Made by a program: the position numbers and the translations under genes
Part shown: piece after piece, positions 1-50,956 of the stretch
How positions within the stretch are numbered: the stretch's first letter is position 1
Layout: each line of letters starts with the position of its first letter
DNA from: Gemmatimonadota bacterium
GTDB lineage: Bacteria; Gemmatimonadota; Gemmatimonadetes; Gemmatimonadales; GWC2-71-9
Reading direction: 5' to 3'
Assembly: GCA_009692185.1 (NCBI GenBank)
Contig: SHZT01000001.1
Span: 1-64,000 of the forward strand
DNA length: 64,000 bases
The notes under the pieces: generated by a model
Seen by the model: the letters and a program-made list of their open reading frames with translations, nothing else
The model's database searches: none
What the model was told of the DNA's origin: nothing

Positions 1-13
1 GCGGAAGATCATC

Positions 14-586
14 ATGTCCGATCCCAAGTTCGCTCCGCTCAACGGGTCGACTTTAAAGGACGGGCAGCTTATCTTTATCAACTTCGCGGGCGAGAACCCG
101 GGACGGTACGAAGCGTTGCTCCATGAAGCGCAGGCAAAGATGCCGGCGCAGTATAATGCCATACAGGGAGCACAGACCTTTGTCGGGGAGTATGTCGATG
201 GGCACCTCGCGCACCGTACCGTTTTCGGAGGGACAGTTCAAGACACCGAGTGGCTTGTGGGGATTGGTCGGCAACTTGCCCCCCATGCGGAAGCCTGGGG
301 CGTCAAGTACCTCCGAGAAAAACCCGGACACGTCACCAGACGATTCGGCGGGTACTTCGACACCCTAGCGGAACCCGCCCCCCGACCCCTCGGGAAGTCT
401 ACCGGCTTCCTGGGGACGCTCGAGCCCCCTCCCGCGAAGTTCGTGCCGAAGGCCCGGAAGGTCGCCAAGTTCCCCACGGTGGCGGTGGTCAGACGGGCCC
501 GCACCCGGTCCCAGACGAGTCGTCGGAGAACCAGCCTCCAGTCACCGGCGTCCATGAAAAGCCAGGGTACCCTGGGCAACGCCTGA
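14..586 (+). CDS. Hypothetical protein of 190 residues
   Basis: I do not recognise this protein. It starts at ATG 14 with a GGAAG ribosome-binding site six bases upstream. Codon choice looks coding over about the first 150 codons (mixed hydrophobic and acidic residues, for example INFAGENPGRYEALL). The last 40 residues are basic, Arg/Ser-rich and low in complexity. There is no signal peptide and no membrane segment. It ends six bases before the promoter of the downstream export gene, so it is probably not co-transcribed with it. A small soluble protein is the best description; the basic tail could reflect a frame change near the 3' end. The opposite strand has an open frame of similar quality over bases 400-590, so the gene call is moderate only. 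Confidence 0.45.
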   Translation: MSDPKFAPLNGSTLKDGQLIFINFAGENPGRYEALLHEAQAKMPAQYNAIQGAQTFVGEYVDGHLAHRTVFGGTVQDTEWLVGIGRQLAPHAEAWGVKYLREKPGHVTRRFGGYFDTLAEPAPRPLGKSTGFLGTLEPPPAKFVPKARKVAKFPTVAVVRRARTRSQTSRRRTSLQSPASMKSQGTLGNA

Positions 587-13697: not shown

Positions 13698-13823
13698 TCA
13701 TTGATCCGGATGAGGACAGACCCGATAGGGTGCTCGCTGGTGGTAGTTGAAAGAGACGCCTATATCCCCTTGACCCACTGATGGTTACGTAGCGATCTTC
13801 CCCTTCACCTTTCACCCGAGCCG

Positions 13824-13854
13824 TTGACGACTTTGCATCGCAAAGTACATTACG
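13824..13854 (+). promoter_or_regulatory. Palindromic promoter-operator, copy 2 (upstream of wza-2)
   Basis: TTGACG (13824-13829), the perfect inverted repeat ACTTTGC-ATC-GCAAAGT (13830-13846) and TACATT (13846-13851) repeat the arrangement seen at 592. The arm base T/A of copy 1 is replaced by C/G on both sides, a compensatory change that argues for selection on symmetry. The exporter start lies 167 bases downstream, so this copy has a leader that contains a gene remnant. Confidence 0.6.
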
Positions 13855-14026
13855 GCACGTCGGATGGCGGGCGGCCAACTTAGCGGAGGAGTGTGACATC
13901 CGGTTCGGGGTGGAACTACTATGCTATACGCCGGGCGAGTATCAGCGCAAACGGCAGGAGCTGGGCATCGTGCGGACGGCGACGGACGAGGGCATTGACC
14001 TTCTGGCGGTGGGCACACATGCATAA
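13853..14026 (+). pseudogene. C-terminal remnant of a nucleotidyltransferase (MNT-like) gene
   Basis: The frame reads WRAANLAEECDIRFGVELLC then YTPGEYQRKRQELGIVRTA and ends EGIDLLAVGTHA-stop. This is the C-terminal signature of minimal nucleotidyltransferase domain proteins (HEPN-MNT type). No start codon and no GSxAxG catalytic motif exist upstream, because the palindromic promoter lies immediately before it. The remnant overlaps the exporter start by eight bases. Confidence 0.6.
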
Positions 14027-16250
14027 GCAGTATTTTTCCCTTTTCCCTCTTCCCTTTTCCCGTCTTTTCCTCGGGCTGGTGCTCTTGGCTAGTCCGGTGG
14101 CCGCCCAGCAATTGCCCACGGCCTCGCAAGCCCAGAGCCTGCTGCAAATGCCCGGCGTCGCCGACTCTCTGCACCAGCGGCTCCAGCAATCCGGAATGAG
14201 TCAGGACCAGATTCGTGCCCGGTTGCGTGCCAGCGGCTACCCCGAGTCCCTGCTCGACCAGTACCTGGGGGCTTCGCGGCCCGGGCAGGGGGCGGCCGAG
14301 CCGGGGGCCCAGCAGTTGGCGGCAATCCAGGCCCTGGGCATTACGCTGGTCACGGAACGCAACCCGTTGCCGGTGGACACGGGATTCATTCGCCCCCGCG
14401 CCGACACGCTGGCGCCGCCGTCCCGCGTGTTCGGGGTGAATGTGTTCCGCCGCCGCACCAACCAGTTCCTCCCGACACTCGCCGGCCCGGTGCCGTCCGA
14501 CTATCGCCTGGGCCCGGGCGACATGACGGTGCTGATCCTCACCGGCGACGTGGAACTGGCCTACTCGCTTCCCGTGACGCGCGAAGGGTTCATGCTGATC
14601 CCGCAGGTGGGGCAGGTGTTCGTGTCCAACCTGACGCTCGACCAATTGCGCGACGTGCTGTACGCGCGCCTGGGCCGGGTGTATTCGGGCGTGCGGCGGG
14701 GGGACAACGCCACGACGCGCTTCGACGTGACGGTCGCCAACGTGCGGACGGTACAGGTCTACGTCGTGGGCGAGGTGAACCAGGCCAGCTCATACCAGGT
14801 CAGTGCTCTCAGCACGGTCCTGACAGCGCTCTATGCCGCGGGTGGCGTGACGGAACTGGCCAACACCCGCCGGATCGAGGTTCAGCGCGCCGGGAAGACC
14901 GTCTCGGCGTTCGATCTTTACGACTACATGCTACGGGGGGACACGCGAAACGACATCCGGCTCGAGACCGGAGATGTCATTTTCGTGCCGGTGCACGGAA
15001 CGCGCGCCTCGGTGTCCGGGGCGGTCACTCGGCCGGCGATCTACGAGTTGAACGCCGGCGAAACGCTGGCCGACCTGATCCGCTCGGCGGGCGGGTTCCG
15101 GGCGGATGCGGCGCTGAGGCGGCTGGCGATTCACAGAATACTACCCATGGCAGACCGGGGGCCGGGGCCTTATCCGAGAGCCGTAGTGGATGTGCCGCTC
15201 TCCCTGACTTCGACCGCGAACGGCGCACCGCGCACCGGGAACGGTGCGGTCGTTCCCCCGCTTGGGCTGGAGAACGGAGACTCCGTCGTGGTGGACTCGG
15301 TGCCGCCGCTCGGCGAGGGATCGCTCTTTGTCTCGGTCGCTGGCATGGTCACCAAGCCCGGCCGGTATGCGTGGCGGGAGGGCATTACACTCCGCGACCT
15401 GGTCTCGCTCGCGCGCGGACCCGCAGTGGGGGCATACCTTCAGGAGGCGGAAATCGCGCGGCTCCCCGAGGATCGCTCGGCGGGCCAGCTGGCGACGACG
15501 ATACGCGTTCCGCTGGATTCCACGTACCTGTTCGAGCGGGACTCGGCCGGCCGCTACGTGGGCCCGCCGGGAATGCCCTTCCCTGCCCGGGGTGCGCCCG
15601 AGGCCGTGCTCCAGCCGTTCGACAACGTCCTGATTCTCCGGCAGCCCAACTTCGAACTCCAGCGAACGGTGGCGATATTTGGGGAGGTCCGTTTCCCCGG
15701 CACGTATTCACTGCGGTCCAAGGATGACCGCCTGGCCAGCCTGGTAGACCGGGCAGGCGGGATGACGCCGAGGGCCTATCAGGCGGGCGTGCAGTTCTAC
15801 CGGAAGACCAACTCGGCCGGGCGTATCGACATTGACCTGACCGGTGCTCTGAGCAATCTGGCTGGCCGCGACAACATGATTCTCCAGCCGGACGACTCGA
15901 TATTCATTCCCGAGTATCAGCCGAGCGTCAAGGTGCTGGGCTCGGTGAACTCGCCGGGCAGTGTGCTGTGGCAGCAGGGCAAGGGCCTGGACTACTACAT
16001 CAGTGCCGCGGGTGGGTACTCATACAATGCCGACAAGGGCAGGACGAGCGTCAAGTTCGCCAATGGCGGCGTGAAGACGGTACGGCGGAAGATTCTGTTC
16101 GAGTCCAGCCTGAAGCCGGGGCCGGGTGCGGAGGTGTTCGTGCCGGCGCATGATCCCAACGCGCGGAAGGATTGGCTGGGGGCGATCGGGTCCATCGCGC
16201 AGATACTAGGGAGTACGGCGGCGATTATTGTGGCGGTGGTGAAGTTATAG
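14019..16250 (+). CDS. Second polysaccharide export protein (Wza/OPX family), five SLBB-like repeats
   Basis: A 743-residue paralogue of the protein at 628-3333. The signal peptide (MHKQYFSLFPLPFSRLFLGL then VLLASPVAA) is again built over TTTTCCC repeats. A shared helical segment (SGMSQDQIRARLRASGY) precedes Poly_export, which starts at YRLGPGDMTVLILTGDVE (about 161). SLBB-type units lie near 247, 330, 438, 551 and 637. The last helix (LGAIGSIAQILGSTAAIIVAVV) is the probable outer-membrane anchor. ATG 14019 gives the clean signal peptide; the open frame begins earlier in the overlapping remnant. Two such exporters suggest two polymers or two export stages. Confidence 0.88.
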   Translation: MHKQYFSLFPLPFSRLFLGLVLLASPVAAQQLPTASQAQSLLQMPGVADSLHQRLQQSGMSQDQIRARLRASGYPESLLDQYLGASRPGQGAAEPGAQQLAAIQALGITLVTERNPLPVDTGFIRPRADTLAPPSRVFGVNVFRRRTNQFLPTLAGPVPSDYRLGPGDMTVLILTGDVELAYSLPVTREGFMLIPQVGQVFVSNLTLDQLRDVLYARLGRVYSGVRRGDNATTRFDVTVANVRTVQVYVVGEVNQASSYQVSALSTVLTALYAAGGVTELANTRRIEVQRAGKTVSAFDLYDYMLRGDTRNDIRLETGDVIFVPVHGTRASVSGAVTRPAIYELNAGETLADLIRSAGGFRADAALRRLAIHRILPMADRGPGPYPRAVVDVPLSLTSTANGAPRTGNGAVVPPLGLENGDSVVVDSVPPLGEGSLFVSVAGMVTKPGRYAWREGITLRDLVSLARGPAVGAYLQEAEIARLPEDRSAGQLATTIRVPLDSTYLFERDSAGRYVGPPGMPFPARGAPEAVLQPFDNVLILRQPNFELQRTVAIFGEVRFPGTYSLRSKDDRLASLVDRAGGMTPRAYQAGVQFYRKTNSAGRIDIDLTGALSNLAGRDNMILQPDDSIFIPEYQPSVKVLGSVNSPGSVLWQQGKGLDYYISAAGGYSYNADKGRTSVKFANGGVKTVRRKILFESSLKPGPGAEVFVPAHDPNARKDWLGAIGSIAQILGSTAAIIVAVVKL
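14034..14061 (+). repeat. TTTTCCC heptamer array in the signal peptide of wza-2
   Basis: Four units (TTTTCCC, TTTTCCC, TCTTCCC, TTTTCCC) start five codons after the ATG, followed by a partial unit. Position and orientation match those in wza-1. Confidence 0.85.
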
Positions 16251-17223: not shown

Positions 17224-17426
17224 ACCAGGACCGGACCGATGTTGGGGGGTGAGCCGCCTGGTAATATACGAACGCCCCGGTCGCCGCGCTCGTGGCAACC
17301 GGTCACACCTAGCTATACATTTTCCCGTGTTCCATGCCGGCGCTGGCACACGCCTTGGGCACAACAGTCGTGGCGCCTCACTCTACCACATGGCGAACTC
17401 GCCGTACTAACCGGAGATGTGACCGA

Positions 17427-18299
17427 ATGACGCAGGGCTTCGTGCGCGTAGGCAACCAGGAAATCGGCCCGGATCGACCCGTGTTCACCATCGCGGAAAT
17501 TGGGATCAACCATAACGGGTCCCTGGAAACCGCCATGAAGCTGGTCGATGCGGCTGTCGAAGCCGGCTGCGACGCCGTGAAATTCCAGAAGCGGACCATC
17601 GAGATCGTCTATACTCCGGAAGAGCTGGCCAAGCCGCGCGCGAGCGTCTTCGGGGCCAGCAATGGGGATCTCAAGCGCGGGCTGGAGTTCGGCCGGGAGC
17701 AGTACCGCCAGATCGATTCGTACTGCAAGGCGAAGAAAATTTCCTGGTTCGCCTCCTGTTGGGACGAGCGGTCGGTGGACTTCATAGCCGAATTCGACCC
17801 GCCCTGCTTCAAGATCGCCTCCGCCTCACTGACTGATGACGCGCTCCTCAAGTATCACCGGCGACTTCGCAAGCCCATCATTCTGTCGACGGGCATGAGC
17901 GATCTGGCACTTATTGAGCACGCCGTCTCCGTACTGGGCAGTAACGACCTCGTCCTGATGCATTGCACGTCGACCTACCCTTCCGACCCCGCTGAACTCA
18001 ACCTGCGGGGCATCAACACGCTCGCCGCACGGTTCGGGGTGCCCGTCGGCTACTCGGGTCACGAGGTGGGCCTGCAGACGACCGTGGCAGCCGTCGCATT
18101 GGGCGCGCGAGCGATCGAACGGCACTTGACCCTGGACCGTAGCATGTGGGGAAGTGACCAGTCCGCCTCGGTAGAGCCGCAGGGGTTCGCCCGGCTTGTC
18201 AGGGACGTGCGCGTCATCGAGAAGGCCCTCGGCGACGGCGCGATCCGCATCTACGAATCCGAGCGGCCAATCATCCAGAAGCTCCGTCGAGTGCAGTGA
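17427..18299 (+). CDS. NeuB-family ulosonic acid synthase lacking the SAF domain
   Basis: A 290-residue TIM-barrel synthase that condenses phosphoenolpyruvate with a sugar. Conserved parts include FTIAEIGINHNGSLETAMKL, DAVKFQKRTI, CFKIASASLTDD, ILSTGMSD, LMHCTSTYP, VGYSGHEVG and IERHLTLDR. Typical NeuB has about 340 residues with a C-terminal antifreeze-like SAF domain that lids the active site. Here the protein ends soon after the barrel (YESERPIIQKLRRVQ). The short form with a KdsC-like phosphatase suggests a phosphorylated substrate. ATG 17427 follows a GGAG site. Its stop overlaps the next gene by GTGA. Confidence 0.88.
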   Translation: MTQGFVRVGNQEIGPDRPVFTIAEIGINHNGSLETAMKLVDAAVEAGCDAVKFQKRTIEIVYTPEELAKPRASVFGASNGDLKRGLEFGREQYRQIDSYCKAKKISWFASCWDERSVDFIAEFDPPCFKIASASLTDDALLKYHRRLRKPIILSTGMSDLALIEHAVSVLGSNDLVLMHCTSTYPSDPAELNLRGINTLAARFGVPVGYSGHEVGLQTTVAAVALGARAIERHLTLDRSMWGSDQSASVEPQGFARLVRDVRVIEKALGDGAIRIYESERPIIQKLRRVQ

Positions 18300-28376: not shown

Positions 28377-29044
28377 GCCTTTCGGGGCCCTCTCACGGCC
28401 AGCCACAAGGCCCCAAGGATACGCCAGTTGGCCCGCATGAATCCGCCAAAGCGGGAGGCGTCCTTTCTCGGCACGATGGTGATCGGTACCTGTCGCAAGC
28501 GGGCTCCCGCCCGGACCATAGCGAGGGCCACTCCGGTCCCGATAGAGCCGGGCAACATGTCGGGAGTGTTTCGATCGAAGAGGGCAATCCGGTATCCCTT
28601 CATCCCGCACAACGGGTCCCAGATCCCGAATTGCATGGAGGCATACAGCGCGAAGATGTACTCGGCGACCCGGGCCGGGCGCGGCCGGTACCCGACGACA
28701 ACATCCGCCTTTCCTTCGACCAGGGGTAGGAGAATGGATTCGAGCAAGCGGGGATCATGCTGACCGTCGGCATCGAGTGTCGCCAGGTACTCGAATCCCC
28801 GTTCAGCCGCGTACGTGAACCCCGTTTTCAGCGCTCCGTCATACCCCTTCTGCTTAGGGTGTCGCACCACGGTGGCACCCGCCGCTTCGGCTTCCGCGGC
28901 TGTGCGGTCGGTGCTGGCATCATCGACCACCACCACCGCCGACACGACCGCCCTGGCGCCCCTCACTATGTCCGCGATGGTGCGATCCTCGTTGTGGGCC
29001 GCGAGCACCGCTACCGTGCGAGCTGACCTGGTGGCGCTCGTCAG
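28373..29044 (-). CDS. Glycosyltransferase family 2 (dolichyl-phosphate-mannose-synthase-like)
   Basis: A 223-residue GT2 enzyme: TVAVLAAHNEDRTIADIVRG, VVVVDDASTDRTA, a DxD site in LATLDADGQHDPRL, and GYDGALKTGFTYAAERG. It resembles DPM1/GtrB transferases that use a polyprenyl-phosphate acceptor but lacks their C-terminal helices. The start is unclear. The last in-frame ATG (29158) is deep inside neuB2; the position matching family starts is CTG 29044, which overlaps the upstream stop as CTGA with GGGGA before it. A CTG start is assumed here. Confidence 0.75.
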   Translation of the reverse strand: MTSATRSARTVAVLAAHNEDRTIADIVRGARAVVSAVVVVDDASTDRTAAEAEAAGATVVRHPKQKGYDGALKTGFTYAAERGFEYLATLDADGQHDPRLLESILLPLVEGKADVVVGYRPRPARVAEYIFALYASMQFGIWDPLCGMKGYRIALFDRNTPDMLPGSIGTGVALAMVRAGARLRQVPITIVPRKDASRFGGFMRANWRILGALWLAVRGPRKA

Positions 29045-30108
29045 ACGTCCCCGGGTTTCAGGTGGTCGCCCATCTCGAGGTTTCGCCGGAGCGCCTTCCC
29101 GACGACCCGGGGGAGCTCGTAGGGCGGCACGCCGTCGGGCGGACAAGGCCTCAGGCACTCCAGGTCGTCGGCCGCGAGAACCGTGCCGGCCCTCAATTCA
29201 CGCGCCGCGCGGATAGCCCGCCGCTGGAGGACTACCGTATCCGCTTCGTTCCCTTCCACTTTCTTGGTTTCCGAACCCAGCGCACGCTCGAGCTCTCGAG
29301 TACGATCCACCATGTCACGCCAGGACTTGGGGTCCATGGAGAACTTGTGGTCCGGCCCGTCGCTGTTACAGTTGTCGGTGAAGTGCTTTTCCACCACCCG
29401 CGCGCCCAGCGTTACGCTGCCGAGCACCGTCGCGTGTCCGGGGGTGTGGTCCGACAGACCCAGCACCACGTCGGGGAACAGCCGGGCATAGGTCCGCAGC
29501 ACATTCAGCTGGATGTACCCGAAATTCTCGAGCGACGCGGTGTAGTTTGTGTTGCACTGCATGAGGACCACGTCGACGGGAAACCGGCGCAGGGTTTCCA
29601 TGGCCCGCCTTACATCGTCCAGCGTTGAGGCACCGGTCGCCAGCATGACCGGTTTCCCCTGCCGAGCCACCCGCTCAATCATCTCCGGCCAAGTGATGTC
29701 GCCCGACCCGATCTTGTAGGCCGGGACGAAGGGAGCGAGCATGTCCACCGCTTCGAGGTCATAAGGGGCAGAGAAGTAATGGATCCCCGCCTCCTCGCAG
29801 GCTTCCTTCAACTTTTCCGTCCATTCCCATGGCAGGCTCGCGTCGGCATAGACGTGAAATACGGACTTGCTCCAGCCCGCCTGGTGAGATTTCTGGTGAC
29901 CCAGGTTTTTGAAGCCCCGGTCGCTCACGATGCGGGGCGCGCGAAAATTCTGGAATTTCGCCGCGTCGGCGCCGGCCTCGGCAGCGAGATGGATCAAGCG
30001 CTTCGCGCGCTCCAGATTCCCGTCATGATTCGCGGCGATGTCCGCAACGAAGTAGGTCGCCGCGTTCCCACCGACCTCGCGGCCCAGGATCTTCAGGGTC
30101 TTACTCAC
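29041..30108 (-). CDS. Full-length NeuB/PseI-family ulosonic acid synthase
   Basis: A 355-residue synthase with both domains. The TIM barrel shows FVADIAANHDGNLERAKRLI, DAAKFQNFRAP, YKIGSGDITWPE, MLATGAST, VLMQCNTNYT, GLSDHTPG and VVEKHFTDN. The SAF (antifreeze-like) domain follows (IRAARELRAGTVLAADDLEC and VVGKALRRNLEMGDHLKPGD). GTG 30108 overlaps the upstream stop. With PseB and SpsF upstream, the product may be a pseudaminic or legionaminic type acid. It is clearly different from the short NeuB at 17427. Confidence 0.9.
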   Translation of the reverse strand: MSKTLKILGREVGGNAATYFVADIAANHDGNLERAKRLIHLAAEAGADAAKFQNFRAPRIVSDRGFKNLGHQKSHQAGWSKSVFHVYADASLPWEWTEKLKEACEEAGIHYFSAPYDLEAVDMLAPFVPAYKIGSGDITWPEMIERVARQGKPVMLATGASTLDDVRRAMETLRRFPVDVVLMQCNTNYTASLENFGYIQLNVLRTYARLFPDVVLGLSDHTPGHATVLGSVTLGARVVEKHFTDNCNSDGPDHKFSMDPKSWRDMVDRTRELERALGSETKKVEGNEADTVVLQRRAIRAARELRAGTVLAADDLECLRPCPPDGVPPYELPRVVGKALRRNLEMGDHLKPGDV

Positions 30109-33988: not shown

Positions 33989-35557
33989 ATGACCGAGGAT
34001 AACCCGCGGACCCCTTCTCGTCGCCCGCTAGCCGCGGGTCCCGAGATCATGAGAAATACGCTCATCAGCGCGGCACACCAGTTGATTTCAATCGTTGTCG
34101 GCATCCTGCTGCTCCCGTTCATGATCGGAACGATGGGGACGGAACGGTATGGCTTCCTGCTCATCGTTCAGGTTTTCAGCTTGTCCGGTGTGCTGGCCTA
34201 CGCGGACATCGGCTTGCAGAACAGCTTCACCCGCCACATGGCGGCGAGCTACGCCCGCAACGATGCGGGGGAGTTTCGCGGCTTCTTCGTGACCACCCTA
34301 GCGACCTTCTTTGCCATCGGTGCCGCGTGCGCGGTCGTGATCTTTCTATGGGCGAGCGTGAGCTTGGTGGAGTTCTTCAGGATTCCCAGTCCCTTCGAGC
34401 AGGAAACCCGGGCAGCGCTCTACGTGTATGCCGGGATGTTCCTCATACAGTTCCCGGCACTGGGGCTCAAGGCCTTTTATACCGCGGTCCAGGACCTGCC
34501 AATGCTGAAGGTGTGGGAACTGGCCAGCCGTCTGATCTACGCAGGCGCTGTGGTCATTCTCCTCATGTCGTACCAGGACGTGCTCAGAGTAGTCCTGGTC
34601 GAGCAGGCGGTCGCCCTGTGTACGATCCTGTTCTTTGCGTTCGTTGCCGCGCGCAGGCACCCCGCGTGGTTTGCGATCCGCCCCGCGCTGGCATCGTGGT
34701 CACATCTCCGCAAAGTAGTTCCCTACGGCGGCCACGTGTTTGCGAACTCTTTTACAACATACGGTGTGTACCAGCGAGTCCCCGACATCGTCGTCGCCCG
34801 CGTCCTGGGGCCAGAGGCGCTCGCGGCGTACGCCATCATCAGCCGCGTGCCCCGCGTCATCAAGACACTGACCGCCGCCGCCAACACCGCCGCGGCGCCG
34901 GTGGCCGCCGCGCTCGACGGCATCGATGCGCGCGAGAAGTTGAGAGACCTGGTGCTGCGAGGGACCCGGTACAGCTATATACTCCTGACCCCGATCGTTG
35001 TCTTTGTGCTTGTGTTCGCCAGCAACATTCTGCGAGTGTGGGTCGGCGAGGAGTTCGTTCCGCTCGCGGATCAGCTGCGAGGAATGGTCGTGTGGCAGTA
35101 CCTTGTGTTCCTGGTGTTCTACACGAATTCGACGCTCACCCGCACGGAGCAGTTCAGGCGCCTGCTCCCTTACACGGTGGGAGGGAACCTGGTCTTTCTC
35201 GTCGTGCTGTTCGCCACCGTGAACCAGCTTGCCCTCTGGTCGGTCGTGGCCTCGCTGCTGGCGAGCCTGCTCGTGGTAGCGACCGGAACAATCGTGGTTC
35301 AGCGTTCGTCGCACGCGTTCTCCTACCGGGACGTGTACCACGTCGTCTTCCGGATGCCCGTGGTGGGTAACGGTATTCTGGCATTCGGTCTGTGCCTGAT
35401 CCTTTGGACTCTCGTGAGGCCCGACAACCCCGCCGCCCTGGCCGCCGCGGCCGCCCTATTCTATACGGGGCACATCGCGATGCTGTACCGGTTGGGACTT
35501 CAGCCGCTGGAACGCAAACAGGTGACACGGCTCCTGCGCCGTGCGCTGGGAGGCTAG
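33989..35557 (+). CDS. Wzx-type flippase, copy 2
   Basis: A 522-residue protein of the polysaccharide-transporter family with about 12 to 14 helices. MRNTLISAAHQLISIVVGIL and TERYGFLLIVQVFSLSGVLA then YADIGLQNSFTRHMA match the usual N-terminal bundle. A second bundle starts near VPYGGHVFANSFTTYGVYQR. It is read from ATG 33989 and divergent from wzz1. It is followed six bases later by a methyltransferase gene and probably exports the ulosonic-acid repeat unit built by the neighbouring operons. Confidence 0.88.
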   Translation: MTEDNPRTPSRRPLAAGPEIMRNTLISAAHQLISIVVGILLLPFMIGTMGTERYGFLLIVQVFSLSGVLAYADIGLQNSFTRHMAASYARNDAGEFRGFFVTTLATFFAIGAACAVVIFLWASVSLVEFFRIPSPFEQETRAALYVYAGMFLIQFPALGLKAFYTAVQDLPMLKVWELASRLIYAGAVVILLMSYQDVLRVVLVEQAVALCTILFFAFVAARRHPAWFAIRPALASWSHLRKVVPYGGHVFANSFTTYGVYQRVPDIVVARVLGPEALAAYAIISRVPRVIKTLTAAANTAAAPVAAALDGIDAREKLRDLVLRGTRYSYILLTPIVVFVLVFASNILRVWVGEEFVPLADQLRGMVVWQYLVFLVFYTNSTLTRTEQFRRLLPYTVGGNLVFLVVLFATVNQLALWSVVASLLASLLVVATGTIVVQRSSHAFSYRDVYHVVFRMPVVGNGILAFGLCLILWTLVRPDNPAALAAAAALFYTGHIAMLYRLGLQPLERKQVTRLLRRALGG

Positions 35558-35563
35558 CGCTAC

Positions 35564-36454
35564 ATGTCCTTGCCGTACGATGACTCGTGGGCCCGCCTCG
35601 GGCGTGGCGTTGCCATCGGCGTTGGGCGTACCTATGCTCCGGTCGGAGGACGCGTGGTCTTCTTGCAGCGCCGCCTGGCGTCGTTTCTCATCGGCGAGAT
35701 CCTCGACGTGGGGGCTGGCGCCAATGGCAAGACCCTCGGCGACGCGCTTGGATCCCGGTACCACGCGCTCGACATCGGGACCAGTTATAAAATCGTTAAT
35801 ACCGCCGAACGGGCTGCCCTTCACTACGTCGCGGACATCGAGGGAAAGCCGCTTCCCTTCGGCGACGGCCAGTTCGACACCGTCCTCTGCATGGATGTCC
35901 TGGAACACATCGATGAATCGCATCTCTTACTCGACGAGCTGTTCCGGGTAGCCAGGCGCGCCGTTATCGTGTCTCTCCCAAACAACTGGCCGGGCTTCCT
36001 GTGGAGTATTGTCCTGGGTCGCAATATCACTCATCGAAGCGGGTACGGGCTGGACGCGCAGGCGAAGCCACCCGGCCAGCGGCACAAGCATTTTTTCAAT
36101 TTCGAGGAGGCGTTCCGGTTCTTGTTTGGGCGAGTCCCTCCCGGCTTCCGGGTGGCGGAAGCCCACTTTGTCTTCGAGCACGGCAATGACGGATTGCTCG
36201 CCTCAGCCCCCTGGTGGAACCGCTGGTTCCGGGTGGCAGGGAAGGCCTCTCCGGAAGACCTGCGCGCCCGAGTCGGTCCCGCGGCGTACCCGCTCTGGCT
36301 GGTCATCCGCCTTGGATATGGAATTGTTCACAGTCTGGATACCGCGCTCTCGGCCCTCCTGTACGGATGGGGCTCCCGGGTCCGGTTCTATAATCTCTTT
36401 TGTCGCCAATTGTGGGTCGTGTATGAGCGCAAGCTCGCGCCGATCCTGAATTGA
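35564..36454 (+). CDS. Class I SAM-dependent methyltransferase
   Basis: A 296-residue Methyltransf_11-type protein. Motif I is ILDVGAGANGKTLGDALGS, motif II is HALDIGTSYKIV, and motif IV is FDTVLCMDVLEHIDESHLLL. The C-terminal third has two hydrophobic stretches (YPLWLVIRLGYGIVHSLDTA and ALLYGWGS) that may touch the membrane. It is in a short-spaced run with wzx2 and the small membrane protein. Its substrate is unknown; a sugar or lipid-linked intermediate is likely. Confidence 0.82.
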   Translation: MSLPYDDSWARLGRGVAIGVGRTYAPVGGRVVFLQRRLASFLIGEILDVGAGANGKTLGDALGSRYHALDIGTSYKIVNTAERAALHYVADIEGKPLPFGDGQFDTVLCMDVLEHIDESHLLLDELFRVARRAVIVSLPNNWPGFLWSIVLGRNITHRSGYGLDAQAKPPGQRHKHFFNFEEAFRFLFGRVPPGFRVAEAHFVFEHGNDGLLASAPWWNRWFRVAGKASPEDLRARVGPAAYPLWLVIRLGYGIVHSLDTALSALLYGWGSRVRFYNLFCRQLWVVYERKLAPILN

Positions 36455-36461
36455 GGCGTCC

Positions 36462-36608
36462 ATGTACATTGATCCCGGACTCGGGAGTTACGCGAATCAG
36501 GCGATCGTTGCCGGCTTGCTGGGACTGGTCGTTGGATTCAGGGAACGCGTCAAGCAGGCGTTTCAGGCTGTTCGGCAGAGCATCACGTCGCGCTTCCGTA
36601 GCCGTTGA
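36462..36608 (+). CDS. 48-residue single-span membrane protein of the YIDPG type
   Basis: A small gene: MYIDPGLGSYANQAIVAGLL followed by GLVVGFRERVKQAF. It has one hydrophobic helix (about residues 12-27) and a basic, amphipathic tail. From memory, short proteins beginning with YIDPG-x-GS sit beside surface-polysaccharide methyltransferases and sulfatase-fold enzymes in many bacteria; no function is known to me. ATG 36462 is eight bases after the methyltransferase stop. The TGA overlaps the next start as TTGA, which strongly supports translation of this reading frame. Confidence 0.72.
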   Translation: MYIDPGLGSYANQAIVAGLLGLVVGFRERVKQAFQAVRQSITSRFRSR

Positions 36609-37987
36609 CCGATCATTCCTTCATCCCCCACCCCGGTTCGTTTCGTGATCCGGCGGGATTCCTGTTTTCCCGGAACGGGCATCTCTTTCGCCAGATCAAC
36701 CGGGTCTACGAACAGCATTACCAGCACTTGATGCGGAGCGGGTTGTACCGCGAGCTGATCGATCGGAAGTGGCTGATTCCCCACGCAGAGGTGGAAGACA
36801 CGCCACCCCCAGACCCGGCGACCGCCTCCCGAATCATCCAGCCAGAACCGGTGACGTTCCTTTCCTACCCCTACGAGTGGTGTTTCGGCCAGTTGAAGGC
36901 AGCCGCCCTGCTGAGCCTGCGGATCCAGCTGCTGGCAATGGACCATGGGATGTCACTCAAGGACTGCACGGGCTTCAACGTCCAGTTTCGCGGGCCTGAG
37001 CCCGTGTTCATCGACACGCTGTCCTTTGAGACTCGTGTGTCGGGGGAACCCTGGCACGCATACCGGCAGGCGTGCCAGCATTTCCTGGCTCCGCTCGCGC
37101 TTATGTCGTATTGCGATCCGGTTTTTGGTCGCCTGCTTGGCCTGCACGCCGACGGGATTCCCTTGTCGCAAGCCGCTCGAAGCCTGCCTCGCCGGACCTG
37201 GCTTCGTTCCGGCCTCGCCCTGCACATCCATCTCCACGCGAGGGCCGAGCGCTGGTCAGCACACCAGGCCCCGGGCGGCATCCGCAAGGTGAGCGAGCGT
37301 GGCGTCCGAGCGCTGGTCGATCAGCTCGCGGCCTCGGTGGCTTCGCTCCCGTCGCCCCGCGCCGAGGGCTACTGGAGCCGGTACGACCCTCGGGAGAGCT
37401 ACGACCAAGACTCGGTCGCGGCGAAGACCGCGCTCGTGGATGGTTTCCTGCGGGAAATCAGGCCGCAGACGGTCTGGGATCTCGGGGCCGGCCAAGGCCA
37501 GTTTGCCTCGTTGGCCGCGCGACTCGGCGCACAGGTGTTGGCCATCGACGGAGAACATCAGGCTGTCGAGCGGAGCTTCCTGACGGCCCGCCAGGCCGGC
37601 CTCTCTATCCAACCCGTGTGGATGGATCTCGCGAGACCGAGTCCGGGGCAAGGATGGGACGGCCAGGAACAGGTCTCCCTGGTGCACCGCGGTCCCGCGG
37701 ATTGCGTCATGGCCTTGGCCCTGTTGCACCACCTTGCGATCGGAAACGGGGTCCCGTTGGAACTCATCGCCGGCTGGCTCGCCCGGCTGGCCCGCACGCT
37801 GATTGTCGAACTCGTCGACGTTGGGGACCGGCAGGTCGACAGCATGCTCGCCCGGCGCCGGACGTCGCTGCCGTACGGCAAGGGGCCGTTCGAGGACGCC
37901 TTCCTCTCCCGTTTCCAGCTTATCCGGAAGGCCCAGGTCGGCACGACCGACCGAACGCTTTACCTGATGCGCTCGATGGACCCATGA
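36605..37987 (+). CDS. NoeA-like methyltransferase with an N-terminal kinase-like region
   Basis: A 460-residue protein. The N-terminus has the signature SFRDPAGFLFSRNGHLFRQI. Residues 100-145 read LKDCTGFNVQFRGPEPVFID, a D-x4-N ... D pattern resembling a protein-kinase-like catalytic loop. The C-terminal class I methyltransferase domain has TVWDLGAGQGQFASLAARLG, VLAIDGEHQAVE and MALALLHHLAIG. Similar proteins are annotated as NoeA-like nodulation methyltransferases. It starts at TTG 36605 and ends in an ATGA overlap with the sulfatase-fold gene, so the three genes are one translational unit. Confidence 0.78.
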   Translation: MTDHSFIPHPGSFRDPAGFLFSRNGHLFRQINRVYEQHYQHLMRSGLYRELIDRKWLIPHAEVEDTPPPDPATASRIIQPEPVTFLSYPYEWCFGQLKAAALLSLRIQLLAMDHGMSLKDCTGFNVQFRGPEPVFIDTLSFETRVSGEPWHAYRQACQHFLAPLALMSYCDPVFGRLLGLHADGIPLSQAARSLPRRTWLRSGLALHIHLHARAERWSAHQAPGGIRKVSERGVRALVDQLAASVASLPSPRAEGYWSRYDPRESYDQDSVAAKTALVDGFLREIRPQTVWDLGAGQGQFASLAARLGAQVLAIDGEHQAVERSFLTARQAGLSIQPVWMDLARPSPGQGWDGQEQVSLVHRGPADCVMALALLHHLAIGNGVPLELIAGWLARLARTLIVELVDVGDRQVDSMLARRRTSLPYGKGPFEDAFLSRFQLIRKAQVGTTDRTLYLMRSMDP

Positions 37988-39444
37988 GGCAAATACGGCG
38001 TATCCACCCGCTGCTCCTTGCGATGTCGCACCCGCTATTCCTGCTCGCCCAAAACCCGGCGACGGTCCCCGCCTGGGATGCGGCCGCCGCGGCGGGCATC
38101 TGCCTGGCAGGAGCAGCCATCGTGCTGGTAGCGAGCATGCTGGTGACTCGCGACAGCGAGCGCGGCGCCCTGGCAGCCGGCGGGTTGGTGATCCTGATCT
38201 TCTTGTACGGGCCTATGCTGGACGCCGCCGCCGCCATCCACCTGGGGGACGTCAGACTAGGGCGGACACGCTATGTTCTCCCCGCCTGGACTCTCATTTC
38301 CGCGACAGTCCTCTTTACCGTCGGGAAAGCCCGCCATGCCGACCGCCTGAATGTGGTACTGGCTGTCGCCTCAGCGGCGCTCTGCGCCACGTCCGGGTTT
38401 CGTATCGGAGCGCATGCGATTACCACACGTCACGTTGTTCCCCTGGCGCTCATCCCGTCGCCGGTCGCACGCGCGCCTGACGCCGAGCGACGTAGCGTGT
38501 ACTACATCATCCTCGATGATTACGGCAGCGAACGTGGGCTCCGACGCGGGTACGGCATCGACAACAGCGCCTTCACGGACAGCCTTCGCAAACAAGGCTT
38601 TCGGATCAACCCCGACACCAAGAGCAACTATCCTATCACGCTTCTGTCGCTTTCGTCATCGCTCAACATGCGCTACATCGCGCCGGAGGCGTCCCGGGCA
38701 GGTGGAGTGGTCGATCCCTACGAATTGATTCGTACCAACATGGTGATGAACTTCTTCCGCAGCCGCGGTTACCGAGTCGTTCACTACAGCTCAGGCAACG
38801 GGCCGACCATGCGTAGCCCCCTGGCCGACGTCAACGTCATGTGCCAGCCGCTCGGGGAACTCGCCACATCCCTGATGAAACAAACGGTCTTCAATATCCT
38901 CCAGCTCAGCTTCGCGTCCCGGGAGGCGCGGGTCCGCTGCATTTTCCGGGAGCTCAGGCGGTCGGCATCCGATACCCTTCCCACGTTCTACTTCGCACAC
39001 ATCCTGGTCCCCCATCCTCCCTACCTGTTCAATGCCGATTGCACCCGCGCGCCGACGCCGTCACCGCCTCCGACCATTGTGGCGGAGTGGCGGGACGGCC
39101 GGAGCTACGGAGCACAGCTGAAATGCGTGAACCGGCTCGCGCTCGAAGTGGTCGACGCAGTACGGAAGCGCAACCCGGAACCAGTCATCGTGCTGCAGGG
39201 CGATCACGGCCCGGCGGCCCTTATGGCCGCTCCGGTCCTGGGTGGTCGAGCCCCGACAGATGATGCGCTGGCGGTCCGCCTGGGAATCCTGAACGCGGTG
39301 TCCCTGCCCGGGACGCCGGTCTCCGCTACATCCTGGGGGACAACCCCGGTGAACACCTTTCGCTTGATCTTCAACCGGTACTTCGGAGCCAACCTGAGGC
39401 CGCTGCGGGACACCAGCTTCTTTGTGTGGTACGACGATTTCTAG
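37984..39444 (+). CDS. Membrane sulfatase-fold (alkaline phosphatase superfamily) transferase or hydrolase
   Basis: A 486-residue protein with four predicted N-terminal helices and a periplasmic alkaline-phosphatase-type domain. YYIILDDYGSERG carries the metal Asp, HILVPHPPYLFNAD the central His cluster, and VIVLQGDHGPAAL the final Asp-His pair. LTA synthase and phosphoethanolamine transferases have this architecture. The nucleophile is not certain; a Ser/Thr in the SNYPITLLSLSSSLNM segment is the candidate. ATG 37984 overlaps the methyltransferase stop. A role in adding a phospho-alcohol group to the surface polymer is inferred. It converges on the GT2 gene with a four-base overlap. Confidence 0.78.
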   Translation: MRQIRRIHPLLLAMSHPLFLLAQNPATVPAWDAAAAAGICLAGAAIVLVASMLVTRDSERGALAAGGLVILIFLYGPMLDAAAAIHLGDVRLGRTRYVLPAWTLISATVLFTVGKARHADRLNVVLAVASAALCATSGFRIGAHAITTRHVVPLALIPSPVARAPDAERRSVYYIILDDYGSERGLRRGYGIDNSAFTDSLRKQGFRINPDTKSNYPITLLSLSSSLNMRYIAPEASRAGGVVDPYELIRTNMVMNFFRSRGYRVVHYSSGNGPTMRSPLADVNVMCQPLGELATSLMKQTVFNILQLSFASREARVRCIFRELRRSASDTLPTFYFAHILVPHPPYLFNADCTRAPTPSPPPTIVAEWRDGRSYGAQLKCVNRLALEVVDAVRKRNPEPVIVLQGDHGPAALMAAPVLGGRAPTDDALAVRLGILNAVSLPGTPVSATSWGTTPVNTFRLIFNRYFGANLRPLRDTSFFVWYDDF

Positions 39445-42074: not shown

Positions 42075-43374
42075 CAGGTTGCTGAAAAAGTAAGAAAACT
42101 CAGCGTAGCGCGGAGGACCGGAACCCCTATGTTGGGGCGGCCTCCACAGGGAGAGCAGCGCGTGGCCCCGACGAGCGGCAAGCGATCCTGTTCACCTACC
42201 GGTCGATCCAGGACCGGATTCCCGCCGACCACCCGCTGCGGGCCATGCGCCGCCTGGTCGATCCCCTGCTGGTCGAGGTGTCGCCGCGGTTCCAAGCGCT
42301 GTACTCGGCTGTGGGGCGCCCGCCGATTCCCCCCGAGCAACTCCTCCGTGCGCTCTTGCTCCAGGTGCTCTACACCATTCGGAGCGAGCGCCAGTTGATG
42401 GAGCAACTCGACTACAACCTCCTCTACCGCTGGTTCGTCGGCCTCACGCCGGACGATGCGGTCTGGGTGCCGACGGTGTTCACCAAGAATCGTGACCGCC
42501 TGCTGGCCGGGAAGATTGCCGAAGCCTTTTTTAACGCCGTGCAGCGCGTGGCCCACGAGCACCAGCTCTTGTCGCTCGAGCATTTCACGGTGGACGGGAC
42601 GCTGCTCGAAGCCTGGGCCAGTCACAAGAGCTTCCGCCCGATCGAGGCCCCGGCCCCTCCGTCGGACGACGATCCCAGCAATCCGAGCGTAAACTTCCGG
42701 GGGGAGAAACGCTCCAATGCGACGCATCGCTCGGTGACCGATCCCGACGCGCGGATGGTGCGGAAGACGCGTCACGGCGCCGCCTTCCTCGGCTATCAAG
42801 CCAGCGTGCTCACGGAGAATCGCCACGGGCTCATTGTCCAGACCGACGTCCGGGCCCCGGGCTACCACGCCGAGCGGGACGCGGCGCTGGAGATGCTGAC
42901 GCTGCTGCATCCGCGGCGCGGGCGCCGGACCTTGGGCGCCGACAAGGGCTACGATACGCCGGACTTCATCGCGGGCGTCCGGGCGCTGGGCTTCACTCCC
43001 CACGTCAGTCCGAATCGGCATCGCTACCGTCGGCGGAGCACGGTCGATGGGCGGACGACGCGGCACCTCGGCTATGAAGTGAGTCAACGCGAACGCACGT
43101 TGGTCGAGGAAGGCTTTGGGTGGCAGAAGTGCGTGGGGCTCCTGCGGAAACTGCATCACCGCGGGCGGGAGCTGGTGAGCTGGGTATTCACCTTCACGAG
43201 TGCCGCGTACAATCTGGTGCGACTGCGCACGCTCCTCGCAACCGCGCCGACGTGACGCGGCTTTGCACGACGGGCCCAGTCGCAGCGAGGATCGAGCCCC
43301 ACGGCCGATGCCAGAGCGGTGATTCATCAGCGCAGCACCAACCGCGTCATTGTTTTCCATTTGTCAGCGACCTG
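42075..43374 (+). mobile_element. IS5-like insertion sequence of 1300 bp
   Basis: The left end CAGGTTGCTGAAAAAG and the reverse complement of the right end CAGGTCGCTGACAAAT are imperfect inverted repeats. CTAG flanks both ends (42071-42074 and 43375-43378) as a four-base target duplication or recognised palindrome. It contains one DDE transposase gene. It is inserted between the sugar-transferase promoter and the GmhA-like gene region. The near-intact ends suggest a recent insertion. Confidence 0.85.
42245..43255 (+). CDS. IS5-like DDE transposase (DUF772 plus DDE domain)
   Basis: A 336-residue transposase. RPPIPPEQLLRALLLQVLYT and LDYNLLYRWFVGL belong to the DUF772 N-terminal domain. FTVDGTLLEAWASHKSF gives the first catalytic Asp, LGADKGYDTPDFI the second, and ERTLVEEGFGWQK the Glu region. 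Homology extends upstream in the same frame (GPDERQAILFTYRSIQDR from about 42165) but no start codon exists there. An ATG at 42129 is in another frame. Either a frameshift (mutational or programmed) joins the two, or the protein starts at ATG 42245. The reported start is therefore the safe minimum. Confidence 0.82.
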   Translation: MRRLVDPLLVEVSPRFQALYSAVGRPPIPPEQLLRALLLQVLYTIRSERQLMEQLDYNLLYRWFVGLTPDDAVWVPTVFTKNRDRLLAGKIAEAFFNAVQRVAHEHQLLSLEHFTVDGTLLEAWASHKSFRPIEAPAPPSDDDPSNPSVNFRGEKRSNATHRSVTDPDARMVRKTRHGAAFLGYQASVLTENRHGLIVQTDVRAPGYHAERDAALEMLTLLHPRRGRRTLGADKGYDTPDFIAGVRALGFTPHVSPNRHRYRRRSTVDGRTTRHLGYEVSQRERTLVEEGFGWQKCVGLLRKLHHRGRELVSWVFTFTSAAYNLVRLRTLLATAPT

Positions 43375-44301: not shown

Positions 44302-44615
44302 GGGCCATTCGTCCGGAGGACGGCTGGAAGAACTGGTAACTAAGCGACTTATGGCGCGATTGCAAAGCCAGGCGCCGATCGCCACCCGCCTTCAACGCAG
44401 GCGTCGAGTCACGAGCGACACGACCTGTCCGGCCGACCTCGGCAGCTGGCTGTTCGGACGCATTCACCGCAATGTCCGCATCGCCCGGAACCTCGTACCG
44501 ATCCAAGCCCCGTACTCCCGGTCCCTAGATGAGAATCACTGGGCACGCCATGACGGAATTCTTTGATCGTGCGTGCGTTGATTCGGGTACGCCACGGACC
44601 GGCCAGCGCCCAGTA
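44302..44615. other. Region without recognisable gene
   Basis: Between the GmhA-like start and the Uma2 promoter there are only short frames in several directions. None has a recognisable domain. It probably holds the upstream control region of the GmhA-like gene. Confidence 0.35.
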
Positions 44616-44645
44616 TTGACTCGGCATCCTCGCCGAGCCGAAGTT
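44616..44645 (+). promoter_or_regulatory. Palindrome-containing promoter of the first Uma2 gene
   Basis: TTGACT (44616-44621), then the inverted repeat CTCGGC-6 bases-GCCGAG (44620-44637), then GAAGTT (44640-44645) six bases before the ATG. Layout and spacing are identical to the block before the second Uma2 gene at 46996. Confidence 0.55.
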
Positions 44646-44651
44646 GTGCAC

Positions 44652-45223
44652 ATGGCCCTGTCCCACCTCGACGTCCCGCCGACGGTGGCCAGCTTCAACG
44701 AGCTGGCGGTGCTGGGCGCCTTCCCGGACGACCTGCGCGCCGAACTCATTGACGGCCGGGTGGTCGAGATGACACCCATCGGAGACCGCCACGCGCTTTG
44801 CGTCCGGCGCCTGCACGACCTCCTCGCCCGCATCCTGCCGGCCAGCGCGATGGTGGATGCCCAGAACCCGGTGGTGCTGGGGGAGTACCAAATGCCCCAG
44901 CCGGATCTGGTCCTCCTCCACCGCCGCGCCGACGCGTACCCGCACCACCCGCACCACCCGCACCACCCGCACGCCGGGGACGTCCGGCTGGTGATCGAGG
45001 TCGCTGACAGCTCGCTGGCGCACGACCGCTGCACCAAGCTCCCGCGCTACGCCCGAGCGGGCATCCCGGACGGCTGGTGAACCTGCCGGGGGCCGAAATC
45101 CTGGTATTCTCGCAACCAGGCCCCGACGGCTACGCGAGCGTCCGCATTGCCCGGCGCGGCGACGTGCTGTCACCGGTGGGCCTGCCGGGCCTCACCCTCT
45201 CCGTGAACCACATCCTGGGCTGA
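44652..45223 (+). pseudogene. Uma2-family (DUF820) gene with a 3' frameshift
   Basis: ATG 44652 opens a Uma2 protein (FNELAVLGAFPDDLRAELID then GRVVEMTPIG, QNPVVLGEYQMPQPDLVLL, VRLVIEVADSSLAHDR). At the conserved A-GIPEVWLV site it reads AGIPDGW-stop at 45080. The rest of the family C-terminus (VNLPGAEILVFSQPGPDGYA and later GLTLSVNHILG) continues in another frame to 45223. A small indel thus splits it. A 9-base repeat encodes HHP units (44941-44967). Uma2 proteins have a PD-(D/E)xK-like nuclease fold; their role is unknown. Confidence 0.72.
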
Positions 45224-49508: not shown

Positions 49509-50696
49509 TTACTTTTCCCGTTTCCCGTTTCCCTTTTCCCTGAGATAGTCCACCAACTCCTCCACCTCTCCCCGCCCCGCCGACACACACACCGCATTCT
49601 CAAACCGCCCCTTGAGCGCCGCCCGCTGGGCCTCCTGCTCGGGTACCAGGTCCATCTTGTTGAACACGGGCACGACCGGGGTCGCGTCGTCCACTCCAAG
49701 CTCGTGCAACGTCTGGTTCACCACGTCCATCTGGCTCTCCCACTCGGCGTGCGACACGTCAATCACATGGAGTAACAGGTCAGCCCGCTTTGCTTCCTCA
49801 AGCGTCGCGCCGAAACTCGCCACCAGATGGTGGGGCAGTTTTCGAATGAAACCGACGGTATCGACCAAGCGGATTCTGTTTTCGCCTGGAGTACTTTTCC
49901 CTTTTCCCTTTTCCCTTTTCCCTTCGTCTTCCCCTTTTCCCTTTTCCCTTTTCCCGCCATTGACCACGAACTCTCTGGCCAGTGTATCCAGCGTCGCAAA
50001 CAGCCGGTTCTCGACAAACGCCTCCGCCCCCGTAAGCGCGTGCAGGAGACTCGACTTCCCGGCGTTCGTGTAGCCCACCAGCACCGCCGTCATCACGTCC
50101 CGCCGGCCCTGGCCCTGGCGCATGGTGTCCCGGTGCTGAACCACGTGTTCCAGTTTTTCCTTGAGCACGCTGATCTTGCGGCGAATCATGCGGCGGTCGG
50201 TCTCGAGCTGGGTTTCACCCGGCCCCCGGAGCCCGATGCCGCCGCGAATACGGGACAAGTGCACCCACATGCGCAAAAGGCGCGGAAGCATGTACTCCAG
50301 CTGGGCCAGCTCCACTTGCATCTTCGACTCGCGGCTCCGCGCGCGGGTGGCGAAAATGTCCAGGATCAGCTCGGCCCGGTCCATCACCCGGAGGCCGAGG
50401 GCCTCTTCCAGGTTCTTCCCCTGCCCCGGCGACAACTCCTCGTCAAACACGATCAGCGTCGCCTTGATCGCCTCCGCCTCGGCCTTCACCTCGTCCACCT
50501 TGCCGGACCCGATGTAAAACTTGGACCCGGGCGACTTGACGGTCTGCGTGAGCCGGCCAACGACCACCGCCCCCGCCGTGTCCGCCAGGGACGCCAGTTC
50601 GTCCAGGTGCTCCGTCAGCGCGAGCGCATCGGGCGTGCGCTGCCGCGGCGCACCCACCAGCAGGACGCGCTCCGGCTGCGGACGCGTGTCAATCAT
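49509..50696 (-). CDS. hflX: GTPase HflX with repeat-encoded insertions
   Basis: A 395-residue ribosome-associated GTPase. The N-terminal HflX domain shows GSGKVDEVKAEAEA and VFDEELSPGQGKNLEEALG; ELAQLEYMLPRLLRMW and GGIGLRGPGETQLETDRRMI are diagnostic. G1 is VLVGYTNAGKSSLLHALTG, G3 is LVDTVGFIRKLPHHLV, G4 is PVFNKMDLV and G5 is CVSAGRGEVEEL. Between switch I (FATLDTLAREFVV) and G3 sits an extra Lys/Arg/Glu/Gly-rich segment of about 25 residues, encoded by heptamer repeats, and the C-terminus (REKGNGKREK) comes from a second array. ATG 50696 is the family start; the longer frame runs into a REP-like repeat. Confidence 0.9.
   Translation of the reverse strand: MIDTRPQPERVLLVGAPRQRTPDALALTEHLDELASLADTAGAVVVGRLTQTVKSPGSKFYIGSGKVDEVKAEAEAIKATLIVFDEELSPGQGKNLEEALGLRVMDRAELILDIFATRARSRESKMQVELAQLEYMLPRLLRMWVHLSRIRGGIGLRGPGETQLETDRRMIRRKISVLKEKLEHVVQHRDTMRQGQGRRDVMTAVLVGYTNAGKSSLLHALTGAEAFVENRLFATLDTLAREFVVNGGKREKGKGEDEGKREKGKGKSTPGENRIRLVDTVGFIRKLPHHLVASFGATLEEAKRADLLLHVIDVSHAEWESQMDVVNQTLHELGVDDATPVVPVFNKMDLVPEQEAQRAALKGRFENAVCVSAGRGEVEELVDYLREKGNGKREK
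49513..49540 (+). repeat. Heptamer array at the 3' end of hflX
   Basis: Four units (TTTTCCC, GTTTCCC, GTTTCCC, TTTTCCC on the plus strand) encode the last residues of HflX and reach the stop codon. They share the unit and plus-strand orientation of the arrays in the two wza-like genes. Confidence 0.85.
49895..49955 (+). repeat. TTTTCCC heptamer arrays inside hflX (GTPase domain)
   Basis: Four perfect TTTTCCC units (49895-49922) and three more (49935-49955) are separated by 12 bases. They are translated from the minus strand as KREKGKG-like peptides between switch I and the G3 motif. Confidence 0.88.
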
Positions 50697-50794
50697 CGTG
50701 CGAATAGGAGGTGCCTCCAACGAGCGAGCGAGCGAACGAGCGGAAGTTAACCGAGTGCGCGCGCGCCGAGGGGAGCCGCCTCTGGGCGGCTGCG

Positions 50795-50835
50795 TCCCCC
50801 CTCTCCCGTATGGGAGAGGGGGACAGGGGGTGAGG
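50795..50835. repeat. REP-like hairpin upstream of hflX
   Basis: CCCCTCTCCC-GTAT-GGGAGAGGGG followed by GACAGGGGGTGAGG. It is a second copy of the element at 46312. It lies between divergent hflX and rmlA and may act on their transcripts. Confidence 0.75.
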
Positions 50836-50956
50836 AACAACGAAGGGCAAGGACGGGGGTAACGAGCGGCCGTGTGGGGTAGAGTCGCAGGCGCGCGAAG
50901 CCCCGCGCCTCTCGGCCGTGGCGCCTCTGCGCACGCGGCTTGGTTAGTTTGTTGCC

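Follow-up and report, generated by a model that had tools for sequence, protein, structure and literature searches.

We found that three overlapping genes in a genome from the Gemmatimonadota encode homologs of the nodulation proteins NoeA and NoeB together with a short membrane protein (the microprotein), and that this trio is conserved in distant prokaryotes. We propose that NoeA phosphorylates an envelope molecule and then methylates the phosphate, that NoeB acts outside the membrane, and that the microprotein links the two enzymes. We judge the chances of this mechanism to be about even.

In the window (the whole 64-kb stretch of DNA that we analyzed), the trio belongs to a near-gapless run of five genes on the + strand, at 33989-39444. 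The genes and the parts of NoeA are:

33989..35557, + strand: MatE/Wzx-like flippase, the first gene of the same-strand run (PF01554, E = 7.6e-10)
35564..36454, + strand: separate SAM methyltransferase (PF08241, E = 3.6e-10)
36462..36608, + strand: YxDPGTGS microprotein, 48 amino acids, with M-YIDPGLGS, one hydrophobic span, and a basic tail (ORF and profile match)
36605..37987, + strand: NoeA homolog, 460 amino acids, with a TTG start (full-length match to NoeA of S. meliloti)
36638..37360, + strand: predicted kinase-fold domain of NoeA, residues 12-252 (invariant residues, AlphaFold2, Foldseek)
37361..37984, + strand: class I methyltransferase domain of NoeA, residues 253-460 (sub-threshold Pfam match, AlphaFold2, VIA-align, PDB sequence match)
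37984..39444, + strand: NoeB-type membrane enzyme with a sulfatase/phosphatase fold, 486 amino acids (PF00884, column conservation)

The flippase and the SAM methyltransferase genes are 6 nt apart, and the latter ends 7 nt upstream of the microprotein gene. The TGA stop of the microprotein gene lies within TTGA at 36605-36608, which it shares with the TTG start of noeA, and noeA and noeB overlap by ATGA (37984-37987). Both overlaps had been given in a first-pass annotation of this DNA, and they and the coordinates are exact. The TTG at 36605 is the only ATG, GTG, or TTG codon in the noeA frame upstream of the conserved SFRDP motif. Genes on the opposite strand flank the run on both sides; scans for promoters and terminators gave about as many matches as expected by chance. 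Because a polyprenyl glycosylphosphotransferase and a glycosyltransferase are nearby, the trio is in a surface-polysaccharide locus here.

The two enzymes are related to proteins that have names. noeA and noeB are known as host-range nodulation genes, and in the literature their modification of the Nod factor is only a hypothesis. NoeA from the window is about 31% identical to NoeA of S. meliloti across residues 11-453 (tblastn, E ~1e-56), which confirms its initial description as NoeA-like. NoeB is about 22% identical to its S. meliloti counterpart, by a weak match (blastp, 21.8% over residues 1-409, E = 2e-7). In the nodL-noeA-noeB operon of S. meliloti, the homologs of NoeA and NoeB are in the same order and on the same strand as in the window, and a homologous small ORF lies directly before noeA. 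Similarly, the annotations of Ensifer canadensis and S. meliloti R14 list nodL, a hypothetical protein, noeA, and noeB. The rhizobial small ORF has a leader that resembles a signal peptide, whereas the window's copy starts with M-YIDPG. A search of plasmids for NoeA returned 65 records, 57 of them from Sinorhizobium. NoeA from the window is 43-47% identical to 13 of the 16 other rows of one alignment (A1). For NoeA and the microprotein, Pfam and NCBIfam offer no names beyond sub-threshold matches to generic methyltransferases.

In 2022, NoeA and Lani_1194 were described as a family of kinase-methyltransferases with two conserved neighbors (PMC9758233). These neighbors were conserved in 65% and 38% of 816 neighborhoods, and one of them is NoeB-like. 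Like the window's NoeA, members of the family as that paper describes them have an atypical kinase site, a methyltransferase half, and a NoeB-like neighbor. The main text does not state the nature of the other neighbor, Lani_1193, which may be a microprotein like the window's. The first-pass annotation had suggested an undescribed system. This is not so for the pair of enzymes, because noeA and noeB are named genes and a kinase-methyltransferase family with conserved neighbors has been published (PMC9758233). As far as our literature searches reach, what is new is the microprotein family and how it connects to the nod operon, the finding that it pairs with NoeB where NoeA is lacking, and the WbdD-like residues in NoeA (see below).

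We then examined the microprotein. A profile of 34 homologs, from which the window's copy had been left out, matched that copy with E = 4.2e-8, and this was the only match in the six frames of the window. (The search covered 3390 fragments, drawn from the window and from seven plasmid loci.) Other small ORFs that adjoin NoeA were matched by a profile that left out both these ORFs and the copy from the window. They come from a deltaproteobacterium, from Novosphingobium and Singulisphaera, and from rhizobia, where the ORF separates nodL from noeA and is annotated as a hypothetical protein. Across 35 aligned copies, the Y, D, G, S, and Q of the motif YxDPGTGSxxxQ are invariant, and the motif is followed by a hydrophobic span and then by a basic stretch. 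The micro-ORF is thus a real gene from a family of membrane proteins, as the first-pass annotation had supposed.

By a simple rule (a hydrophobic segment whose last residue, just ahead of the Y, is small), 54 of 75 microproteins have a leader that resembles a signal peptide; the window's copy starts with M-Y and has none. A cleaved leader, together with a basic tail after the span, would leave YxDPGTGS on the outer side of the membrane and the tail on the inner side. From charge and leader, then, the microprotein probably has its N-terminus out and spans the membrane once. Pfam and NCBIfam have no model for the family (there are scattered matches above E = 0.01 only), and a search of the literature with the motif found no description of it. 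We also considered that the microprotein might be fused to NoeA or NoeB in some genomes, and rejected this: none of the 75 matches has a long tail.

To what extent do the three genes occur together? Our sample of loci is the best 80 of at least 516 confirmed relatives in named genomes, so these are the closest relatives and not a random sample. (Alignments A3 and A5 omit one locus, L067, which has a broken frame.) Judging from their titles, these best 80 loci span over 20 phylum-level names, including Chloroflexi, Bacillota, Peregrinibacteria, Parcubacteria, and an Altiarchaeales archaeon. In 71 of the best 80, the microprotein is encoded within 300 nt of NoeA on the same strand (65 before it and 6 after it). 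Another four have it within 2 kb, and five have none, two of which (L070 and L072) start at the end of a contig. A NoeB-type gene is present in 64 of the best 80. The statement in the first-pass annotation that distant bacteria have similar trios is thus supported. Among those of the best 80 that have 1.5 kb or more of sequence on each side (n = 50), 46 have the microprotein, 44 have NoeB, and 41 have both. Where the right flank is 700 nt or longer (69 loci of this sample), NoeB comes directly after NoeA in 45. An earlier motif rule, limited to ORFs of up to 140 amino acids, placed the microprotein beside NoeA in 66 of the best 80, and the microprotein was recovered in 11 of the 14 genomes that this rule missed. 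Distance matrices over 47 loci are correlated (r = 0.41 for NoeA and NoeB, 0.40 for NoeA and the microprotein, and 0.25 for NoeB and the microprotein), for which common organismal ancestry could suffice.

The first-pass annotation had also placed such trios in surface loci. This holds for the window, but among the 123 nearest neighbors from outside the module, taken from 75 loci of the sample (the best 80 of at least 516), just three match Glycos_transf_2 and two match Glycos_transf_1. A caveat is that these neighbors were chosen as the longest ORFs, and some are not genes. Because few of the nearest neighbors match glycan families, the cassette is mostly self-contained. Its self-containment and its presence in Bacillota, Chloroflexi, and an archaeon point to a general envelope substrate.

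An alternative is that the system decorates only Nod factors, or only lipopolysaccharide. We consider this very improbable. noeA and noeB are indeed host-range nodulation genes, but the sampled loci (the best 80 of at least 516) include Bacillota, Chloroflexi, candidate phyla, and an archaeon, and several of these groups have no lipopolysaccharide. As for Nod factors, we recognized no nod genes among the window's ORFs or beside the trio, not even nodL.

The genomes of the window's phylum gave a similar picture. Among 298 genomes, 19 have NoeA, 18 have the microprotein, 22 have NoeB, and 18 have all three, so every genome with the microprotein also has both enzymes. In the nineteenth genome with NoeA (G231), NoeA is at the end of a contig. 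(There were 48 genomes with a match to NoeA at E = 0.001, and we counted the 19 with E of at most 7.7e-36. G246, G015, and G126 were dropped because their proteins are of a distant type that is followed by an ORF resembling a carrier protein; the other rows that we dropped were short methyltransferase matches. The count for the microprotein is from 21 matches with E of at most 3.2e-5, and it excludes G102, whose match of 0.006 is beside NoeB, and G291, whose match of 0.008 is alone.)

Could the neighborhood be due to chance, with a micro-ORF that is not a gene? Open frames do abound in DNA of high G+C content. But NoeA is never more than 2 kb away from any of the 75 microprotein matches in the 606 kb of sampled loci (the best 80 of at least 516), and the co-occurrence in genomes has a Fisher p of about 6e-28 (ignoring the kinship of the genomes). 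The conservation of the trio in both loci and genomes refutes chance, to which we give practically no credence.

The 21 strong copies of the microprotein in these 298 genomes also indicate which enzyme it works with. Seventeen adjoin NoeA (16 of them with NoeB too), and the remaining four have a NoeB-type gene as their direct neighbor but no NoeA there. Because of these four copies, the microprotein is a partner common to NoeA and NoeB, and not an accessory of the methyltransferase alone; to call it an adaptor of the methyltransferase would be too narrow. Overall, the microprotein is the usual but unnamed third component of the NoeA-NoeB system. The enzymes sometimes occur without it: 9 of the 15 places with a NoeB-type gene away from NoeA have no match to the microprotein, and the NoeA of G008 has no adjoining microprotein. 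NoeB was not found in 6 of the 11 genomes with NoeA that we tested, most of which are metagenome bins.

We then considered the chemistry of NoeA. The first-pass annotation had pointed out a kinase-like D-x4-N...D stretch before the SAM domain. This stretch is present, as Asp120 (36962-36964), Asn125 (36977-36979), and Asp137 (37013-37015), and these residues, along with Arg29 and Glu91, are invariant in all 80 aligned homologs (from the best 80 of at least 516). AlphaFold2 modeled all of NoeA with a pLDDT of 91.9, and residues 1-255 with one of 93.4. When we compared residues 1-255 of the model to known structures with Foldseek, all 50 of the matches listed were protein kinases or kinase-like domains (best E = 9e-5), with TM-scores over the query of 0.34-0.46 among the matches listed. 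VIA-align gave Z scores of 9-10 for this half, over about 200 residues and with an rmsd of 4-5 Å. Profile searches of PDB sequences gave no match at E = 0.01 for the whole of NoeA and none at E = 10 for the kinase half. Pfam had no supporting match for the kinase half either; RIO1 came closest (E = 0.077) and was seen in 4 of the best 80 of at least 516 relatives. Given the model and the invariant residues, a kinase fold is supported for the N-terminal half as a prediction. The kinase-like D-N-D site and the SAM methyltransferase are in a single chain, which ends after the methyltransferase.

Several observations link the methyltransferase half to WbdD from E. coli O9a, in which a kinase and a methyltransferase are also fused. 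First, a profile of this half, compared to 177,635 PDB sequences, had WbdD as its first match, although the match is weak (E = 0.0015-0.0024) and is tied with other methyltransferases, such as phosphomethylethanolamine N-methyltransferase (E = 0.0026). Second, His375 and His376 (37727-37732) align with His132 and His133 of WbdD. In WbdD, these two residues and Arg203 are needed for methylation of phosphate, and mutation of the histidines abolishes it. His375 and His376 are found in 80 of 80 homologs and Arg450 in 79, with one gap (best 80 of at least 516). Arg450 would be opposite Arg203, judging from the ends of the ranges aligned by VIA-align (253..460 and 9..213), if the last ten residues are ungapped. 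There are also differences: WbdD has the order methyltransferase, kinase, coiled coil, while NoeA has the kinase half first and no coiled coil after the methyltransferase. We detected no sequence similarity between the two kinase halves, and the substrate of WbdD is mannan. Because WbdD is the first PDB match and because His375 and His376, and perhaps Arg450, correspond to its residues, we predict that phosphate methylation is the most likely chemistry of NoeA.

Alternatively, NoeA might not make a phosphate at all. Its N-terminal half would then be a pseudokinase or would bind the substrate, and its methyltransferase would act on a sugar hydroxyl, amine, or carboxyl, like NodS and many methyltransferases of sugars. 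Many methyltransferases tie as structural matches to this half, with NodS the highest, and NodS or RebM has an HH pair as well. Furthermore, in the main text on the published family, the site is atypical in that an arginine replaces the catalytic lysine and no glutamate partner was identified (PMC9758233). However, Asp120, Asn125, and Asp137 do not vary among the best 80 of at least 516 relatives, which argues against a pure pseudokinase because it would not need them. The invariance of the HH pair and the rank of WbdD in the sequence search also favor a phosphate. We think that this alternative is fairly unlikely.

A separate candidate was a defense system. The methyltransferase mad2 of the MADS defense system matches NoeA (E = 3.7e-9), but only in part of the methyltransferase (residues 256-386), and we found no match in PHROGs, so we rejected this.

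The third protein of the trio had been described as a membrane enzyme with a sulfatase fold. This is upheld by a match to Sulfatase from Pfam (PF00884), which is barely above the cut-off (25.8 versus 25 bits), and by residues 36-142, which contain four hydrophobic segments. The likely functional residues are conserved across 91 sequences of the NoeB family: Asp178 (97%), Thr219 (95%), His339 (95%), His344 (93%), Asp407 (95%), and His408 (86%). A formylglycine sulfatase would have the activation motif C/S-x-P-x-R. We rejected this activity, since the motif is absent: the presumed nucleophile is a threonine in 95% of the 91 sequences, and the window's protein has NYPITLLSL. In the alkaline phosphatase superfamily, phosphotransferases such as LtaS and EptA have a threonine nucleophile, with aspartates and histidines as metal ligands, in a catalytic domain outside the membrane. 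NoeB is similar to these in that its membrane segments are followed by a catalytic domain with a threonine and an Asp/His site. LtaS is among the matches of NoeB in a profile search of the PDB (E = 6e-4), although formylglycine sulfatases outscore it (best E = 1e-11).

How might the three proteins work together? In the mechanism that we prefer, NoeA would be a cytoplasmic enzyme with two domains. The kinase-fold half would most likely phosphorylate a hydroxyl group of a membrane-associated envelope molecule (a lipid-linked glycan, a glycolipid, or a lipid), and the methyltransferase half would then methylate that phosphate, as WbdD does. NoeB would have a membrane anchor and a catalytic domain on the outer side. 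Its most likely role would be that of a phosphotransferase or a phosphohydrolase, with threonine as the nucleophile, acting on the modified molecule. The microprotein would cross the membrane once, with its YxDPGTGS end out and its basic tail in, and as the common partner it would join the steps of NoeA and NoeB. Our analysis shows how the genes are arranged, their homology and joint conservation, the folds predicted for the enzymes, and the conservation of catalytic residues; from there, the substrate, the order of the reactions, the topology, and the linking role are inferred.

A different role for the microprotein is that it is itself the acceptor, or the regulated substrate, of NoeA and NoeB, or that it presents its YxDPGTGS end to the active site of NoeB. 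The microprotein is very short, its end is strictly conserved and includes an invariant serine, and, judging from the leaders, this end would be the mature N-terminus outside the membrane. An acceptor could also pair with either enzyme, as the microprotein does. But both enzymes occur without an adjoining microprotein (the NoeA of G008 and the nine NoeB-type places), and we know of no modified form of the microprotein. Such a role seems unlikely to us.

Our preferred mechanism can be extended to a widespread machine that decorates the envelope from both sides of the membrane. NoeA would place methylphosphate on a common lipid or glycan of the envelope, NoeB would use or transfer it outside, and the microprotein would be an obligatory subunit. 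This is possible, and we offer it tentatively. If it is true, then it would also account for noeA and noeB, host-range genes that have been known for three decades, and it would add a third, overlooked gene to the noeA-noeB operon. The cassette occurs in bacteria with more than 20 phylum-level names, and in an archaeon as well (sample of the best 80 from at least 516 loci), which suggests a general envelope substrate, not the Nod factor only. The WbdD-like residues make the chemistry of NoeA directly testable. And the microprotein, which is nearly always by NoeA in the sampled loci yet has no model in Pfam or NCBIfam, is a good target for the study of small proteins.

The PADLOC model mad2, for MADS defence, matches the methyltransferase part of the window's NoeA homologue (36605-37987) with an E value of 3.7e-9, and the match covers residues 256-386 only.

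Three of the loci that we compared (L053, L054, and L055, from genomes G246, G015, and G126 of the phylum) encode NoeA-type proteins that are distant, at about 28% identity, and the YxDPGTGS microprotein is absent from all three. In each of them, the next ORF after the NoeA-type gene is about 95 amino acids long and reads as acyl carrier protein-like. This arrangement is perhaps a second type of kinase-methyltransferase system. In another locus, L136 (6176-9543), the microprotein is followed by two NoeB-type genes in tandem, with no NoeA adjoining. (The NoeA of that genome lies on the same contig, about 28 kb from this group, and itself has neither a microprotein nor a NoeB.)

Several window ORFs contain repeats. 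A GTPase-like ORF (49509-50840) has a low-complexity KGKREKGKG stretch within its reading frame, and similar repeats are read in further ORFs, such as 238-1353 and 13812-14645. The ORF at 44529-45080 has a short His-Pro-His repeat (HHPHHPHHPH).

The polysaccharide locus around the trio is bordered by an ORF (42245-43255) that, from its sequence, we take to be transposase-like. Two other ORFs (17334-18299 and 29041-30108) are presumably both sialic-acid-synthase-like, which suggests that the window's polysaccharide contains nonulosonic acid sugars.
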